64,000 bases of DNA, taken from contig JNEU01000826.1 in the NCBI GenBank assembly GCA_000697475.1, forward strand, positions 305,794-369,793, written 5' to 3'. Both the position numbers and the translations under genes were made by a program. Below the pieces are notes generated by a model, which was given only the letters and a program-made list of their open reading frames with translations, did no database searches and was not told where the DNA came from. The first letter of the stretch is position 1. Each line of letters starts with the position of its first letter. Source of the stretch: Lichtheimia corymbifera B2541 (taxonomy: Eukaryota; Mucoromycota; Mucoromycetes; Mucorales; Lichtheimiaceae). Below, one piece after another: positions 767 to 7,760 of the stretch.

Positions 767-3215
767 CTAGTTGAGTTGCTGAGAGAAATTGCTGGATAAG
801 GATGGGGCCGAGTATCCCTCATCACGCCCCAGGCTAGTGTCGCGATGATAGTCGTCGGGTTGAATATCGCTGTCAGAATAATAGTAGTAACAGCGATTGT
901 CGTCATTATCGGAACGACTTCCGATCAGTGAAATGCCGGCATTACTTGAGGAACCATAGCTGCTGGTGTCATTGATGTATGAGTAACCTTGAAACGCTTC
1001 TTGAATCGACGAGGTGAGGAGATCGGTATTGGAAACAGGGGTAAGCCTTGGTGTCATGTTGAGAAAATCTCTGTCAAAATTGCTCAAGTCTGTTTCCGAG
1101 CGAAGGTGGGGAACATATTCGGGAGGGATCCGTTTGTGATACACGTCGGACCAATCAAGGGAAGCAAAGTAAGGGTGGGATCTGATGATGATGGGTCCAT
1201 TGGGCCCTGTACCCAATCGTTTATGCTCGTCCCGCCATAACAAACCGGCAATGAAATCTTGAGATACATCATCAAACGCATCCGTGAATTCGAGATCATC
1301 TTCCAATATCCGCCGGTACATTTCCCCATGTTCTTCGTGATAAAATGGTGTGATTCCTTCCAACATCTCATAGAGGATCATGCCAAGGCTCCAAAAGTCA
1401 ATTGCATACGTGTAAGGTTCTTGCTTTAGAATCTCTGGCGCAAGATACTCAGCAGTACCACAAAAGGTCCCGGTGCGTTGATTATCCAATCCAATGGCTG
1501 GCTCGAATTGCTTTGATAAACCAAAATCAGTGAGGACAACATGCCCTTCGGCATCCAATAAGATGTTCTCAGGTTTCAAATCCCTGCAAGTTACAGAGAT
1601 TGGTTAGTGTATTCTCAATGATCACGCTGACCTTTTCTCTCTCTCACCTGTAAACGATGCCTAAGCTATGCAGCTCTTGTAGTCCCAACAAAATCTCGGC
1701 GGCATACAGACGACTACGTGCTGGGGAAAATACTCGATGTCTTGCGAGCTGGGTTGCAACATCACCTCCACGATGATAATCAAGAACCAGAAATAGTTGG
1801 TCTGCATCTTGAAACGCACAGTGTAGTCGGACGAGGAAAGGATGTCGTATTTCAGCGATTGACGTAAGAATATCCCGTTCCATCTTTGTATGCACAATCT
1901 CACGCTGTAGCACCACATTTTCCTTGCTAATAGCTTTGAGAGCCAGTAAGCGTCGAGGTGACCGATAGGATTGCACCAATAATACCTTTACAACAATAAC
2001 TAAATTAGCTCATCGAAAACACAACCACCTTTACCACCACGTGCTTTGCTGCGGGATTTTCCTCTACACACTCCTACATACCTTGCCCATACATCCGCGA
2101 CCAAGCACTTGCAGAAATCGGTAATCTTGTATCGTGGGAACATGGTGCCGCTCTTTTGAAATGGTATCCTCGTTGTAATCACTCTCCCCCCTTTGAGATG
2201 GTTGCACTATTCTCATGTGGGATGATGATGATGATGATGGATATGTGTCGAATGATGAATAGGATGACGTGCGTTGTTGTTGTTGTTGCTGCTGATGGTC
2301 AATTGGAATTCTGGATGATGACGGGACACTGTATTCGGGACCGACATCTTCCATTACAATATCGGAGACGCTATCCATCATAGGCGCCGCCAAAGAAACT
2401 TTTTCTTGTAATGGTCGTGATGATGATGATGGTGCTGGTGGGACTGGAATAATGGCATCATTCTTTTGGGTGAGGGAAATATCATCTGCTGTAGTAACAG
2501 GGCTGCGTACAAATTCGGTATCTTCAGGTCGTTGCTTTGTCAAAAAGTCGCGAAACAATGTCGATTTGCCAATAACTGGATCCAACGCACATCGCTTCAA
2601 ATACGTCTCAATCTTTTCGGAATTTGGCTTGGTGGATCGTCGTCGAGAAAGTCGATGGAGGAATGCACGTATACTTGCTTTTTTACCGGTGCCATAGAGA
2701 CGTAAATCAGGCTCCACAAGTTGTGGCAATGAGATCCTTGATTTGCGATAGTACTTTTTGACCTAGAAAGTAGCCATCAATATAAAGACAACATGGATCA
2801 TCCAATTCTAACTCCAATTACCTTTCTATCGAAATCGATGAAATCGGGTAGATAGCGTACAAGAGACTTGTGCAGTAACTGATCCTCGATGATGACATTA
2901 AAGACCTAATGGTGTTTTTTCATGCATTAATAACAAAGATAATGGGCTATGTTTCAGATATTTCGTCATCCGACTTACTGTAAGCACGCGACGCACTCGT
3001 TTCTTCTTTTTGCTATCGTAATCTTGTAACATGAGGGTCGATTCGATAACAGCGATCTCGAGTTGAATGCCTCCGTTGTGGTTGAGGACACTGGTGTTGG
3101 ACTGAGTATACATGATGGAGGAAGACATTGTGCTTGATCCGGTCGGTGGAGCATTCCGATGGTGTGCCGACGGGCTTTCCGAAGACCTTGTGGATGGCAG
3201 GAACGCGATTGGCAT
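767..3215 (-). CDS. PX domain-AGC serine/threonine kinase (SGK3/Ypk-like)
   Basis: Five exons (3215-2979, 2905-2822, 2762-2082, 1985-1648, 1583-767) sum to 718 residues in frame. The N-terminal third is a PX phosphoinositide-binding domain, spanning exons 1-3 and including RRVLTVFNVIIEDQ and the KKYYRKSR region. A low-complexity Ser/Gln linker follows. The kinase domain has the Gly loop GRGCMGKV, ALKAISKENV with the ATP lysine, YRDLKPEN, DFGLSKQ and the activation loop TFCGTAEYLAPE. The C-terminal tail has a turn-motif-like TPRLTP and a hydrophobic motif FQGYSYI, both typical of AGC kinases. A PX domain before an AGC kinase is the SGK3 arrangement. In that family PX binding to PI3P places the kinase on endosomes, and PDK1 and TORC2 phosphorylate the loop and tail. 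Phosphorylation here is inferred. The Gly loop carries Cys-Met where Ser/Ala-Phe is usual. Confidence 0.88.
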
Positions 3216-3735
3216 AGGATAGTTGTAAATGTGTAACTTGTGTGGAAAAAGAATGAAATAAAGAGAGAGCGGAGGAAGGAATATGCCCTATGTGGATGTT
3301 GTTGTAGGCTGTATAGGAACAAAAAAGAAATGAAGCAACGCTACACAGGATGGTTTGCTGTTGCTCTGACGGCCCCCGTATTACCTAAAACGTGCCTTCC
3401 GACAAAGAAAAGCTTACACCTCCGTATATAACGACATCTGATGTGATACCACCCACCACTATATACCTTTTACCTTTCATTGTTGCCTGTTGCTATAGAA
3501 ACCCATTTATCGTTATTGTAGTAGTATAAAACATAAACAAACTTCCCCTTCCATGCATTATCAGCCACACCACCTCCTTGTATCTACTACCTGTTGGCAT
3601 ATCAAAAAATAAATTCTCCTTGGTAACTTCATGACATCACGAGTTTAGTACATGTGACAACCAGGTACACTCATCTTAGGGGTACAATAAATGTCAGGGT
3701 ATACGTTTTATTTTGCTTGTGTCAGATGGGATTAG
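3216..3735. other. Intergenic, promoter side of the PX kinase
   Basis: This stretch separates the start of the PX kinase from the stop of the SNAPC1-like gene; both genes are on the minus strand. It is AT-rich with several short frames that show no protein-like pattern. It should contain the PX kinase promoter and the SNAPC1-like 3' end. No distinct element was recognised. Confidence 0.5.
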
Positions 3736-5182
3736 CTATTCTGATGTTATAGATGATGATGAAGAGGGTGACCCTGGCTGCTCCTGTTGTGAATATGGGG
3801 TGTCAGCCGCATCAGCCACTGGTTGAGGCTGAGATCGCCTTTTCTTCTTATGTGAGGATCCAGCTCGTTGTCGATTATGAGCATTGAATATAATAGGTTT
3901 CTTCTCCAGTCGTTTTAATCTCGAACGCCATAAAAGACGTGTTGCATTGCTTAGTGTTTGTTGAAAGTCGTTTTCATCAGCGCCAAGACTGCTATTACGC
4001 AAGATACGTTGTAACGTGGGGCGGCTACGTTCAGTTACTGTCGTCTTTCGCCTTAGCATATGTTGTGCTGCTATGGGGGCTTGTGTGGTGGCGATGGCTA
4101 GTTGCTTTGCTCGCTGATATGCATCGGATATGTCTTTGAACTGTGATGCTTGGTTTGGCTGTAAAGCAGCAGATACCTTTAAATGAAAACAATGTTAGTC
4201 TCAATATCACTTTTTCCCTTATACTCTCTCCTACTCACAGCATCATTGCTAGTCCTCCATCTTTTCCACTTTTCGATCGTATGAATCAATCTGATAACGA
4301 AAAAGGAAATGAGCAGAGTAATCTAAATAAATACGGGAATAGATCACTTACTCTCTCTCTGATTGCATCTCCTTTATCTCAAATGGATTCACAGGTTTCA
4401 ACGCAGTTTCGACAACGAAAATGAAGGCACCATCAGTCATCATTTGCTTGAAAGCAAGAGCCGCTCGGCCATGGTTATGGGTACTAGTGTCAGCCAAGCC
4501 CGCAACATAAAAGTCATGTAATTGACACCATGTCGCTACCATAAATGAGTTTGCATAATGAACCTAATCCATCTCTAACAATGAACTTACTTGGATCAAC
4601 GCGTATCCCAAAACGTTTCCAACATGTGGGCTGTGAGTAATAGATGAAATACAATGTGTAGATAGCTGCAATCTTCATCGCCGGCTGATCACTCATGATG
4701 TAGGCTGGATAGTAATGGTACGAACAATGAATATGGCATAGGTGGATGTATGGACGTTGATCACTTACAGCTCCCAGCATCATAGAACGCTTGCAAGTAA
4801 CGTGGTCGATCCTCCTCCTCGATAGCGCCAAAGTGAATGAGATAAAACTGCAAGGTCTCCCACGCATGTTGGAAATCGGTATAGTCGTGGTGTTCGTGCT
4901 ATGAATAGAGATCGTTAACACTGTTTCGAAGATCGCATGTAGCAAGACGCTTACTGCAACAAAGTTGGTCACCAAGAGTTCCACATCGTGGCTAATCGTG
5001 GGTCGTAAAAGGCCTCTTTGGCTTCGATCGATGCGTACAACATCAGCTGCGTCAAGGACGCTAGAAGGGTGTCTGTTGATCATTTCGTTGCAAGTTGTGG
5101 TAGAGAAAACAACTAAATTTGCAGAATAGCTCGGGACAATGTCAGCACCAACAGCGATCCCCCTCTCAACACAATCATGCAT
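3736..5182 (-). CDS. SNAPC1-like subunit of the snRNA-activating protein complex
   Basis: Six exons (5182-4955, 4898-4769, 4704-4591, 4535-4352, 4290-4239, 4176-3736) give 382 residues. An internal ATG at 5083 gives 349, and both stay in frame. Animal SNAPC1 is about 370 residues. Matches to SNAPC1 run through the N-terminal half: HDVELLVTNF, then YTDFQHAWETLQFYLIHFG (family: EDFTELWRNMKFGTIFCG), IAAIYTLYFIYYSQP (family: RVGALYLLYGLYNTQ), FGIRVDP, and HGRAALAFKQMMTDGAF in the place of the family's FRKLRLDRAF. The C-terminal part is basic and Ser/Gln rich. SNAPc binds the proximal sequence element and recruits Pol II or Pol III to snRNA genes; SNAPC1 contacts SNAPC4. The upstream neighbour on the same strand is the SNAPC4-like gene, which strengthens the call. 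The N-terminal start is uncertain. Confidence 0.82.
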
Positions 5183-5453
5183 ACCCTGCTACTCTTTGTT
5201 AAAATAAAATGAGACGTTATGTCTGCTTTAACCCAAAAACTACCATCACTATCAAAGACGCTTTCAGTGTATGCAGTCTTAGCTAGATGTTTAACAAAAA
5301 TATGGGTATCAGGATGTTGTTTATATAAGGTACTGCTTTTTACATGAGTGGATAAGAAATTATAAACATCAATCTACTATAACGAGTAATTTTCTATCTA
5401 GTGTGTCGAACAATGAGCCTTTATCTTGGTATCATGATGATTGAGGTAGTGAT

Positions 5454-7760
5454 TCAGGATGATGCTTTTGCCTTCCCCTTTGTACGTGATCGTTTGGACC
5501 TTGCTTTTTCTGCAGCTTTTGCTTCTTGAGCCTTCCTGTTTTCTGCCGTTTTCCAGAACCGTAAAAGATGGTTATCAGTGCGACCAGGAAAGAACTTTGT
5601 CAACATCGACCACTTTCGTCCGTGCTCCTCAATAAGTGCATAGAGCCTTTCTTCTTCTTCAGCGGTAAACGGGGCAAAAGTAAGGGAAGGATCGAGAATA
5701 TTGGTCCACCGTTCACGGGCCTGCATATCCGTACGACCTGGCAAATGCCGTTGTATCTTGTTCCAATTGCCAACACCATAAAAACTCACAGCACGTCGAA
5801 GTGTTTCATCCTCTTGTTCTGTCCACTTTCCACGGCGAATGGCAGGGTTGAGTGATTTCATCCAACGTTGAAGACATTGATTGCCCGTTCGATTGCCCAA
5901 CATGCTCGCTGTTTGTTGCCAATTTCCTTCGCCCAAAAGGGCTACTGCTTCTCGTAACGATAAATCATCTTCTTCGGTCCATTTCTTCTTTGAATGACTG
6001 GTATTCCTTTCTGATTGATATCTCGAAAAGCATTGTGAAGCGGTGCGATTGGATCCATGCTCCTTGGCTATCAATTCCCATTTGCCGTATATGCCATGCT
6101 TCTCCACCAATTCATGTAGCTTTTGTGATTCTGCTTTGGACCATGGCTTTTTGTTGATTCTTGGATGTTCTTGGGTTGTCCACTGAATAATGCATTGCAC
6201 TGGTGTTCTTGAATGTACCTAAAGAAAATAACCCTTGTGAACAATGACTCTTTGCTTTGAGTGATTCCATACGTACATAAAGTGCGCTAATACGCTTCCA
6301 ATTCAACTTGTCCACTGGTACGTTCTCCAATTCCTTATCCGACATCTTGTCAACATCCCATATCTTGTGTTCCTCTTTGCTAGTATTATTAAACTGAATT
6401 TAGTAATCGCGTATATATGTTGAGAAGGATACATAGATACCTGGCAACGATCGAAACAACCAGTGCACGTCGTGCTTCCGCATGTACACCATCAAATAAT
6501 CTTTGTCGCTCTGAATTTGACCCTGTATTACATTGTGAGCAGGAAATAAGAAACCTAAACCTTGTCTTTGTTTTACTTACAAGTACGTCGCACAACGCCC
6601 ATACTTTGATCGATAGTATCCTGTTGGGAAGGATCGGTTGCGATGGGTGGTTTGTTGCCATCTTCGTCAATGAAAAAGTCATAGGTCGTCGGGTACTTTT
6701 TGTGGATCTTGACAGGCTTTTGGTCCATTTTCACTTCCATACTTGAGAGGTCTCGAACGTTTTGCTAATAAATCCATGTTGGTTATAGGTTTAATGAAAC
6801 CACATTTCGCATATTTACCATCAACTCTTGCGTTGCACGTATCCGTTCTTCAATCCATCCAAGTTGATTCTCAGCATGTTGCTGCATTTCCATGTTTAAG
6901 CGTAATGCCTCTGCAATCGCAAGCGATCCACGGGTATATTCATCAAGATCAGGAAAGTCAATCAATGAGCTTAGCACATCAACAGGTTGCTCTAATGCTG
7001 ATGATAATTCTGATGATAAAGGCGAACTTGATGCTGCTGCTTCGTCTTGTGTAGATGTTGGTTGTGAGTCCAATACTGATGCTTCTGCTTCTTCTTGTGT
7101 AGATGTGGGTTGTGAGTCTAATGCTGGTGCTTCTGTTTCTTCTTTTGTGGATGTTGGTTGTGTGTCTGGCACTGATGCTGCTGCTTCTTCTCGTGTAGGT
7201 GTTGGTTGTGTGTCTGATACTGATGCATCTGTTTCTTCTCGTGTAGGTGTTGGTTGTATTTCATTTGGTGCCGTTGCTGTGGCACCCTCCTCATCAACAT
7301 GATTCGATGGTGTTGAACTTTCCATTTCTTGTTGACTTGTAGCATTCAATGACTCGTCAATGTTTTCATGTGTTGTATGCTTCTTTGTTTTCCTGGTCGC
7401 TCTAGCTCTTGAAGGTCGCAAGGATGATGACTCTTTGACGTTGGTTGTCTGTCGCTCGGCATGTGGTTTACGTGCAAGACGTGTACTGGATCTTAAAACA
7501 CGAGAACTTGGCTCTGGTGCCGGTGCTTTTCCTTTAATGCGAAACGAATATGACACTTGTCGTTTCCTTTTGCGCGGCTTTCTAGTGGTGTCCTCAATGT
7601 CGTGATCAGCTGTGTCTGACATGCGTCCTTCCACTTGATCAGTGTCAGAATTTGACGATGGTAACCCGGCCTTTGAATGCTGTTGATCGTTTTCAGATAG
7701 GTTCAAGTGTGTATCACTGTCGGCCGGTTCATGTTGGGTAGGTGTCTTTCGTTTTGACAT
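5454..7760 (-). CDS. SNAPC4 (SNAP190)-like Myb-repeat protein
   Basis: Five exons (7760-6819, 6764-6581, 6522-6441, 6379-6277, 6218-5454) give 691 residues in frame. The first ~310 residues are basic then Ser/Thr/Glu-rich, with five 16-residue repeats. The C-terminal half starts with a half Myb repeat (KLNWKRISALYVHSRTP, then EHPRINKKPWSKAE) and continues with four Myb/SANT repeats. Each has the tryptophan pattern: KPWSKAES/KWELIAK, KKWTEEDD/NWQQTAS, GKWTEQED/NWNKIQR, APFTAEEE/KWSMLTK. The order matches animal SNAPC4, where a half repeat (DWEKISNINF, then EHPSINKQEWSREEE) precedes the full repeats. In SNAPc this subunit is the DNA-binding scaffold for the snRNA proximal sequence element. A generic Myb factor is the alternative, but the half-repeat pattern and the adjacent SNAPC1-like gene argue against it. 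The tail is very lysine/alanine rich. Confidence 0.85.
7030..7269 (-). repeat. Five tandem 48-bp units within the SNAPC4-like gene
   Basis: Five consecutive 48-base units encode a 16-residue acidic Ser/Thr/Glu repeat. The core is a QPT-S/P-T motif followed by a charged stretch and a Ser/Ala run, for example SQPTSTQEEAEASVLD. The last unit on the plus strand (first in the protein) is the most diverged. The units stay in frame, so copy number can change without breaking the protein. Confidence 0.9.

Follow-up and report, generated by a model that had tools for sequence, protein, structure and literature searches.

Genes for three core SNAPc subunits, two classes of conserved small-RNA promoter and a 3' box in the early-diverging fungus Lichtheimia corymbifera

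The genome of Lichtheimia corymbifera encodes all three core subunits of the snRNA-activating complex (SNAPC1, SNAPC3 and SNAPC4; 3/3) and the nuclease INTS11, and its small-RNA genes carry two conserved classes of promoter and a 3' box. These features suggest that this early-diverging fungus has probably kept a SNAPc system of three core subunits that drives both promoter classes in the style of animals and plants, using DNA signals of its own. The textbook view of fungal snRNA transcription is built on yeasts. In open-licence PubMed Central, the collection that we searched, we found no paper on SNAPc, snRNA promoters or 3'-box anatomy of early-diverging fungi, a weak sign that none exists. 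A fungal SNAPc is no novelty in itself: SNAPC3 of other Mucorales is named in some database entries, and annotations of both SNAPC3 and INTS11 exist for related fungi.

SNAPC4 and SNAPC1 are real neighbours on the minus strand of the window (the whole stretch of 64,000 nucleotides that was analysed), as the preliminary description had it, and both genes have intact frames and GT-AG introns. The SNAPC4-like gene (7760-5454; gene model, PDB comparison and Pfam Myb repeats) comprises five exons (7760-6819, 6764-6581, 6522-6441, 6379-6277 and 6218-5454) encoding 691 amino acids. Aligned to human SNAPC4, its Myb array (half repeat Rh plus Ra-Rd, residues 403-666) maps to 5532..6442 on the minus strand with two introns within. 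The first exon (6819..7760, minus strand) is translated into a low-complexity N-terminal extension that contains imperfect repeats of the type QPTPTREEAxASVxD and in which a Pfam search found no family. A minus-strand spacer of about 370 bp (5084..5453) separates the SNAPC4 stop from the ATG of the SNAPC1-like gene (5083-3736; gene model, orthologues and PF09808), the six exons of which (5083-4955, 4898-4769, 4704-4591, 4535-4352, 4290-4239 and 4176-3736) encode 349 amino acids. This start, a methionine at 5083, matches that of the L. ornata and L. hyalospora proteins; an in-frame ATG farther upstream, at 5182, would give 382 amino acids. The PF09808 domain, residues 64-260 of the 382-residue model, extends across all six exons at 4105..4993 (minus strand; coordinates worked out by hand from the exon table).

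Profile and structure comparisons bore out the identities proposed for both genes. SNAPC1 matched PF09808 far beyond chance (E=4.6e-30) and human SNAPC1 at 2.5e-7; a six-frame search of the genome with PF09808 returned no match, presumably owing to the division of the gene into six exons. For the Myb protein, described at the outset as SNAPC4 with half-plus-four Myb repeats, the top solved structure was human SNAPC4 (E=1.1e-40, residues 403-666); c-Myb followed at 5.2e-33, and the first chain of CDC5 type came at 2.1e-14. SNAPC4 was the best match for all three array queries, narrowly so for Rb-Rd. It is barely credible that the gene encodes a c-Myb- or CDC5-type protein lying beside SNAPC1 by chance. 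Such a reading could draw on repeats Rb-Rd, which taken alone are almost equally near SNAPC4 (1.2e-37) and c-Myb (7.4e-34), and on residues 245-461. This stretch, with the half repeat but not Ra, matched no SNAPC4 chain in the PDB even at E<=10, so that the half repeat is recognised solely within a longer stretch. However, the half repeat together with Ra (residues 397-513) favoured SNAPC4 (8e-25; c-Myb 2.6e-11, CEF1 7.5e-9), and the array follows SNAPC4 order across 264 residues.

The third core subunit, whose presence the preliminary description had left to a search of the genome, was found there: a spliced SNAPC3 model matched PF12251 with E=1.6e-55 and human SNAPC3 at 7e-31. SNAPC3 lies on contig C339 and the SNAPC1/SNAPC4 pair on C212, and the earlier suggestion that adjacency possibly reflects coordinated expression of the subunits is unsupported. 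Among the matches listed, the SNAPC3 relatives were seven Mucorales proteins and three plant proteins (3/10), the latter being the sole non-fungal ones. The three proteins would be expected to form a functional snRNA-activating complex. When compared with the base-contact residues of human SNAPc given in part of PMC9652321, the fungal proteins differ at SNAPC4 Y389 (Q) and R445 (N) and at SNAPC3 K194 (S, weakly aligned) and W350 (F); W348 of SNAPC3 is retained, and R151 falls outside the aligned part.

The snRNA genes do share upstream elements, as had been anticipated, with separate ones for Pol III-type and Pol II-type genes. In the five Pol III-type genes, a 13-mer, ACCCACAAGTTGA, was identical and positioned exactly 34 bp before the start of the TATA box (5/5). 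These genes represent three families, namely two U6 genes (U6a and U6b), SRP RNA and an unknown pair; a third U6 match (L015), fused to a tRNA-like stretch, was excluded from the promoter comparison. Among 96 loci the 13-mer was confined to the same five genes (7 loci, two genes having been fetched twice), although the pattern searched with did not contain it. Counted from the start of the SRP RNA model, it begins at -65 with TATA at -31. The candidate element thereby occupies the place of the human U6 PSE, which spans -65 to -48 according to a passage of PMC9652321. B-box-like internal words occur in or near SRP RNA and L093, suggesting that TFIIIC may take part there.

The U1, U2, U4 and U5 genes lack the -65 13-mer and instead have in common CCnAAAAACTATAAAwARGG around the TATA box (9/9, or 8/8 without L005, a truncated U1 variant without the ATACTTACCTG 5' end, for which Rfam gives 37.8 bits against a cut-off of 69.5). 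With matrices derived from the other RNA families, each of the nine sites scored higher than any of the 127,960 positions in the window. The 9 bp directly above TATA likewise scored higher in each than at all 57 TATAAA sites in the window (0/57 as good). The pattern AAACTATAAAWARG had six matches in 35 Mb and none for the reversed control, and five of the six were U2 or U5 promoters; L017, also a match, was rejected as an snRNA promoter, having no Rfam match and sitting, by eye, where a coding gene ends. A looser version, for which U1a and U4 are too divergent, gave 39 matches versus 8 for the control, 12 of them belonging to one dispersed repeat (8 compared). Among loci from this looser search, AAATGATA was present within 700 nt in 8/30, corresponding to six known U2/U5 genes, L033 and L051.

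This TATA-fused block is the only element common to the Pol II genes upstream. The best match to the 13-mer in Pol II genes had 4-6 mismatches in 14/15, with none at the -65 place; L033, a gene without RNA identity, has a copy with two mismatches at another place. A separate upstream PSE was sought as 6-8-base words, allowing one mismatch, in 13 upstream regions and was rejected, the words being no more frequent than in dinucleotide shuffles (observed counts were reached by 24 to 58 of 60 shuffle sets for word lengths 6-7 and by 34 to 39 of 40 for length 8). The U6 promoters were likewise rejected as variants of the Pol II element, with scores in the Pol II matrix of -3.3 and -0.2 that 305 and 115 of the 127,960 window positions reached. 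The human arrangement, in which Pol II and Pol III snRNA genes have the same PSE, was not seen among these genes.

A AAATGATA box is located 9-32 nt downstream of the U1, U2, U4 and U5 genes (9/9). Such a box is present after U6atac and RNase P RNA as well, at which neither promoter element was found. The corresponding pattern, AAAWGAAAATGATA, matched the genome 34 times versus 5 for the control. We fetched 30 of the 34 matches and scanned them for promoters; 23 were compared with Rfam, the other seven (already known genes, the snR10-type L051, or L033) being kept out of that step. Ten of the 30 were known or Rfam-placed RNA genes, one was L033, two (L060 and L064) resembled RNA genes by eye, and about 17 had no recognised RNA. 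One of the four unfetched matches, C409:85892, is placed immediately downstream of the truncated U1. Together, the promoter and 3'-box signals led to U3, an Afu_182/snR10-type RNA, SRP RNA, U6atac, RNase P RNA, several RNAs without identity and probably U12, which Rfam placed weakly, below its cut-off. Promoter scores for L060 (11.3), U12 (11.0) and L064 (10.0) did not exceed the best control (11.9), though no more than one of the 127,960 positions in the window scored as high as any of them.

INTS11 is the catalytic subunit of Integrator and its nuclease. The fungal gene matched INTS11 at 6.7e-218 versus 4.8e-91 for CPSF73, and INTS11 was the annotation of all organism-named relatives among the matches listed (best 120 of 1701). 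It was the only Integrator subunit found in a genome search for Beta-Casp genes; INTS9 was not among the three genes recovered by this search, which could miss a diverged, intron-split gene.

We propose that SNAPC4, through its Myb repeats, and SNAPC3, joined by SNAPC1, would bind the -65 element of U6 and SRP RNA, and that the bound complex would help to position TBP/TFIIIB on the TATA box at -31 of Pol III-type genes. On the Pol II side (U1, U2, U4, U5 and related genes), SNAPc may act through the CCnAAAAAC block fused to TATA and recruit Pol II. Cleavage of the nascent RNA could then take place near AAATGATA, perhaps through an Integrator-type nuclease containing INTS11. Binding of SNAPc to both promoter elements is predicted here. 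It is unlikely that SNAPc serves the Pol III-type genes exclusively, through the -65 element, with TBP by itself reading a strong TATA box at the U1, U2, U4, U5 and snoRNA genes as in budding yeast. The restriction of the 13-mer to Pol III-type genes (5/5), its absence from that position in Pol II genes and the TATA-centred Pol II block with no separate upstream word would all fit such a division, but a bare TATA box would not need the conserved 9 bp above it, which recur over four RNA families and are equalled at none of the 57 window TATAAA sites. In addition, parts of PMC6004067 and PMC9845283 describe both classes in animals and plants as using SNAPc or its element.

A further alternative, to which we give very little weight, is that the SNAPc genes are expressed for another task while other factors read the elements; TBP/TFIID, for example, might do so at Pol II genes, and a different Myb activator or a zinc-finger one at -65. 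The altered PSE-contact residues and the dissimilarity of the U6-type element to human PSEs could be taken this way, yet a TATA distance of 34 bp that is invariant in three families is more what one would expect of a core promoter factor than of an ordinary activator, and the element sits where the human PSE does. SNAPc is not known to have any other general task, although SNPC proteins reportedly have a piRNA role in the worm. Use of both promoter classes by SNAPc remains our preferred reading.

Taken together, the genes for all three core subunits and for INTS11, the 3' box and a PSE-like element placed as in human U6 suggest that the animal/plant snRNA system was the ancestral state, with its loss coming later in fungal evolution. 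More tentatively, and with considerable doubt, this fungal lineage may have a complete but re-wired SNAPc/Integrator system, a surviving intermediate between those of animals and plants and of yeasts, in which one AAATGATA box cut by INTS11 marks a regulon of U1, U2, U4, U5, U12, U3 and H/ACA RNAs, perhaps with RNase P RNA and U6atac. A SNAPc system of the kind we favour would offer a compact setting in which to study how a single factor tells Pol II from Pol III, and the consensus elements are useful in themselves as finders of small-RNA genes.

Among known systems, Saccharomyces is similar in having TATA-containing Pol II snRNA promoters; its U6 gene uses TFIIIC boxes, and yeast is not known to have SNAPc or Integrator. 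Other early-diverging fungi have the same SNAPC3 and INTS11 families by database annotation, in entries where we saw no promoter or 3'-box analysis. Like human core SNAPc (PDB 7xur, 7zwc), the fungal set consists of SNAPC1, SNAPC3 and SNAPC4 with their defining domains. Human Pol II and Pol III genes use one interchangeable PSE (in passages of PMC6004067), and the Pol II snRNA genes are described in parts of PMC9758055 and PMC6004067 as lacking a TATA box, the addition of which shifts them to Pol III; the fungal Pol II snRNA genes, in contrast, carry one. Plant promoters, as outlined in sections of PMC9845283, combine a USE (RTCCCACATCG) with TATA, and as in the fungus a TATA box is found in snRNA genes of either polymerase; one USE serves both polymerases, and its distance from TATA sets the choice. 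The fungal Pol III element has CCCACA in common with this USE, whereas the fungal Pol II genes differ from those of plants in having no -65 element. The plant 3' box, given as CA(N)3-10AGTNNAA in part of PMC5079582, differs in sequence from AAATGATA, and the same source attributes plant snRNA cleavage to a complex containing CPSF73 rather than INTS11. As in the metazoan Integrator/3'-box system, the fungus has an INTS11 orthologue and a box just below its Pol II snRNA genes.

The SNAPC4-like gene (7760–5454, minus strand; five exons, 691 amino acids) is followed on the same strand, about 370 bp from its stop to the next start, by the SNAPC1-like gene (six exons, 349 amino acids), which begins at 5083 when the ATG of its orthologues is used and ends at 3736; a second in-frame ATG lies upstream at 5182. 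Both models have intact frames and GT–AG introns, confirming the tandem pair reported in the preliminary description. The spliced SNAPC1-like protein matched the Pfam family PF09808 (4.6e-30; 105.6 bits, cut-off of 23.8) and human SNAPC1 (2.5e-7), and a protein search returned only relatives from Lichtheimia ornata (95% identity) and L. hyalospora (87%). Immediately below SNAPC1, the ORF list contains a gene (1644–3287, minus strand) that by eye resembles a protein kinase.

The Myb protein likewise groups, as had been proposed, with SNAPC4 and not with CDC5 or MYB proteins. Among solved structures its best match was human SNAPC4 (1.1e-40, residues 403–666); c-Myb (5.2e-33) and CDC5-type chains (at best 2.1e-14) scored lower. 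The preference was much clearer for residues 397–513, comprising the half repeat and Ra (8e-25 versus 2.6e-11 for c-Myb), than for Rb–Rd alone, which are just slightly nearer SNAPC4 (1.2e-37 versus 7.4e-34); residues 245–461, with the half repeat but lacking Ra, retrieved no SNAPC4 chain at E ≤ 10.

The third core subunit, SNAPC3, is encoded in the same genome on a different contig (G000:C339). Its spliced model, one among eight compatible exon choices, matched PF12251 (1.6e-55) and human SNAPC3 (7e-31), and its conserved part retrieved ten proteins, three from plants and seven from fungi of the order Mucorales: Lichtheimia (Mucoromycota), Dichotomocladium, Phascolomyces, Zychaea, Circinella and Fennellomyces. 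As some of the seven fungal entries are already named as SNAPc proteins, finding SNAPc in Mucorales adds no new annotation by itself. With about 12,000 genes assumed, we estimate that two among three given genes would be adjacent by chance in about 5 in 10,000 cases, which makes the SNAPC1/SNAPC4 pairing notable, though a single case; coordinated expression of the two genes is unproven.

We searched the whole genome (34,979,012 bases, 432 contigs) with Rfam models and found two U1 genes (one of them a variant that falls short of the cut-off), three U2, one U4, three U5 and three U6 genes. At one fetched locus (L015, around 1460–1610, plus strand), a tRNA-like stretch, in which ARAGORN with the bacterial code found no tRNA, is fused directly to a U6-like RNA without the usual U6 5′ end.

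Upstream of the snRNA genes we found shared proximal elements, as the earlier interpretation anticipated, but of two kinds: a PSE-like 13-mer at the Pol III-type genes U6a and U6b and an extended TATA at the Pol II-type genes U1, U2, U4 and U5. A U6a/U6b core pattern, which did not include the 13-mer, gave 11 genome matches at ≤3 mismatches versus 5 for its reversed control. These included the SRP RNA gene (115.7 bits, cut-off of 70) and a paralogous RNA gene pair that matched no Rfam family, L089 (from 1511, plus strand) and L093 (minus strand). The two paralogues differ in their 5′ part, agree almost completely over a 3′ domain of some 100 nt and end in a T-run. The exact 13-mer ACCCACAAGTTGA is common to all five genes, spanning three families, at an invariant 34 bp upstream of the TATA start, and is followed by YRWYRART and then GAAAACCA[AC]TTTAAAAG, with one base different in L093. 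Across 96 fetched loci (284,482 bases, overlaps counted) it occurred in seven, all at these five genes, two of which were fetched twice; no exact match occurs in the window, where four two-mismatch copies were counted (2.0 expected). The start of the SRP RNA model, and by eye that of the U6 5′ stem, lies 31 nt downstream of the TATA start, which puts the 13-mer at −65 to −53.

All nine U1, U2, U4 and U5 genes, the truncated U1 included, carry the block YCnAAAAACTATAAAwARGG, with the TATA starting 36–46 nt above the first base of the model (21 in the truncated U1). Under matrices that left out the site's own RNA family, each of the nine scored higher than any of the 127,960 window positions; judged by the 9 bp above the TATA alone, each also scored higher than all 57 TATAAA sites in the window. 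The exact core AAACTATAAAWARG has six matches in 35 Mb, five of them U2 or U5 promoters (reversed control, 0), and a looser search gave 39 matches versus 8. This search also listed a dispersed repeat with the TATA-type word GTAAAAGCTATAAATAAGG (L031, L032, L034, L037, L040, L045, L047, L054), perhaps a transposon end, with 12 copies among the listed matches, several close to contig ends.

The same nine genes have AAATGATA 9–32 nt below the model end, and it lies downstream in 8 of 30 loci fetched from the looser search, six of them U2/U5 genes already known and the other two, L051 and L033, new. The truncated U1 (L005, minus strand) lacks the end that pairs with the 5′ splice site yet keeps promoter and 3′ box, and is probably a pseudogene. 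The 3′-box pattern AAAWGAAAATGATA had 34 genome matches versus 5 for its reversed control, and 30 loci were fetched for inspection. The box directly follows U2b, U2c, U4, U5a, U5b, an Afu_182/snR10-type RNA (L051; RF01496, 66.6 bits, cut-off of 65; snR10 weak, 33 of 70 bits) and L033 (minus strand), which has the Pol II element, resembles an H/ACA RNA by eye, folds well (z of −2.8; 2 of 200 shuffles equally good) and matched no Rfam family. It also follows U3 (67.3 bits with the plant family, cut-off of 80), U6atac (L056; 46.7, cut-off of 33), RNase P RNA (L074; 94.1, cut-off of 28) and, weakly, a probable U12 (L080; 27.6, cut-off of 53, E 0.084); no RNA was recognized at 17 of the 30 loci. 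With U6atac scoring above its cut-off and the probable U12 below, the genome seems to have a minor spliceosome. The U6atac and RNase P RNA genes (both minus strand) combine a T-run with the Pol II-type 3′ box, though they have neither promoter element. L060 and L064 (plus strand) are candidate small-RNA genes by eye; both have the 3′ box, match the promoter weakly and, again by eye, contain C/D-like boxes. They share a TTCTTTA-type start with U4, U5c, U3 and L051, seen by eye except in U4 and U5c.

A Beta-Casp search of the genome returned three genes, orthologues of CPSF73, CPSF100 and INTS11, the last (L022) matching human INTS11 at 6.7e-218 versus 4.8e-91 for CPSF73. INTS9 was not among the three, and a diverged, intron-split gene could escape such a search. 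There were 1,701 INTS11 relatives at E ≤ 1e-150; among the best 120, every entry with an organism name is fungal, many are already called Integrator complex subunit 11, and Mucor, Rhizopus, Mortierella, Rhizophagus and Dimargaris (Kickxellomycota) are represented. According to PMC5079582, metazoan Integrator cleaves pre-snRNA aided by the 3′ box, and plants have a different 3′ box and a CPSF73-containing complex as nuclease.

Judging from sequence, SNAPc probably acts via both the −65 element and the CCnAAAAAC block. At U6, SRP RNA and L089/L093, SNAPC1 would hold SNAPC4 and SNAPC3 together as these bind the −65 element and help to set TBP/TFIIIB on the TATA at −31; at Pol II genes SNAPc would act through the CCnAAAAAC block beside TBP. 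That it serves Pol III genes only we consider unlikely, weighing that block against the absence of the 13-mer from Pol II genes at the corresponding place and a search of the Pol II set that found no further upstream element.

The gene pair is thus confirmed, and its interpretation as an animal- or plant-like system for snRNA promoters is supported. The proteins are further members of known families and were in part annotated before; what seems new is the promoter and 3′-box anatomy together with INTS11 in an early-diverging fungus, of which we found no report in the open-licence literature searched, and it is a variant of known systems. The human U6-1 PSE spans −65 to −48 (PMC9652321), and the plant upstream element, RTCCCACATCG (PMC9845283), has CCCACA in common with the fungal 13-mer, a likeness that is suggestive and no test. 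In SNAPC4 the fungus has Q and N in place of the human contact residues Y389 and R445, and in SNAPC3 both K194 and W350 are replaced, as expected if a different DNA sequence is read. Whereas human Pol II snRNA genes, as described in PMC9758055 and PMC6004067, lack a TATA and adding one shifts them to Pol III, the fungus has a TATA in both classes, so the polymerase must be chosen by some other cue; with the changed contact residues, this suggests that the fungal system is not a plain copy of the human one.
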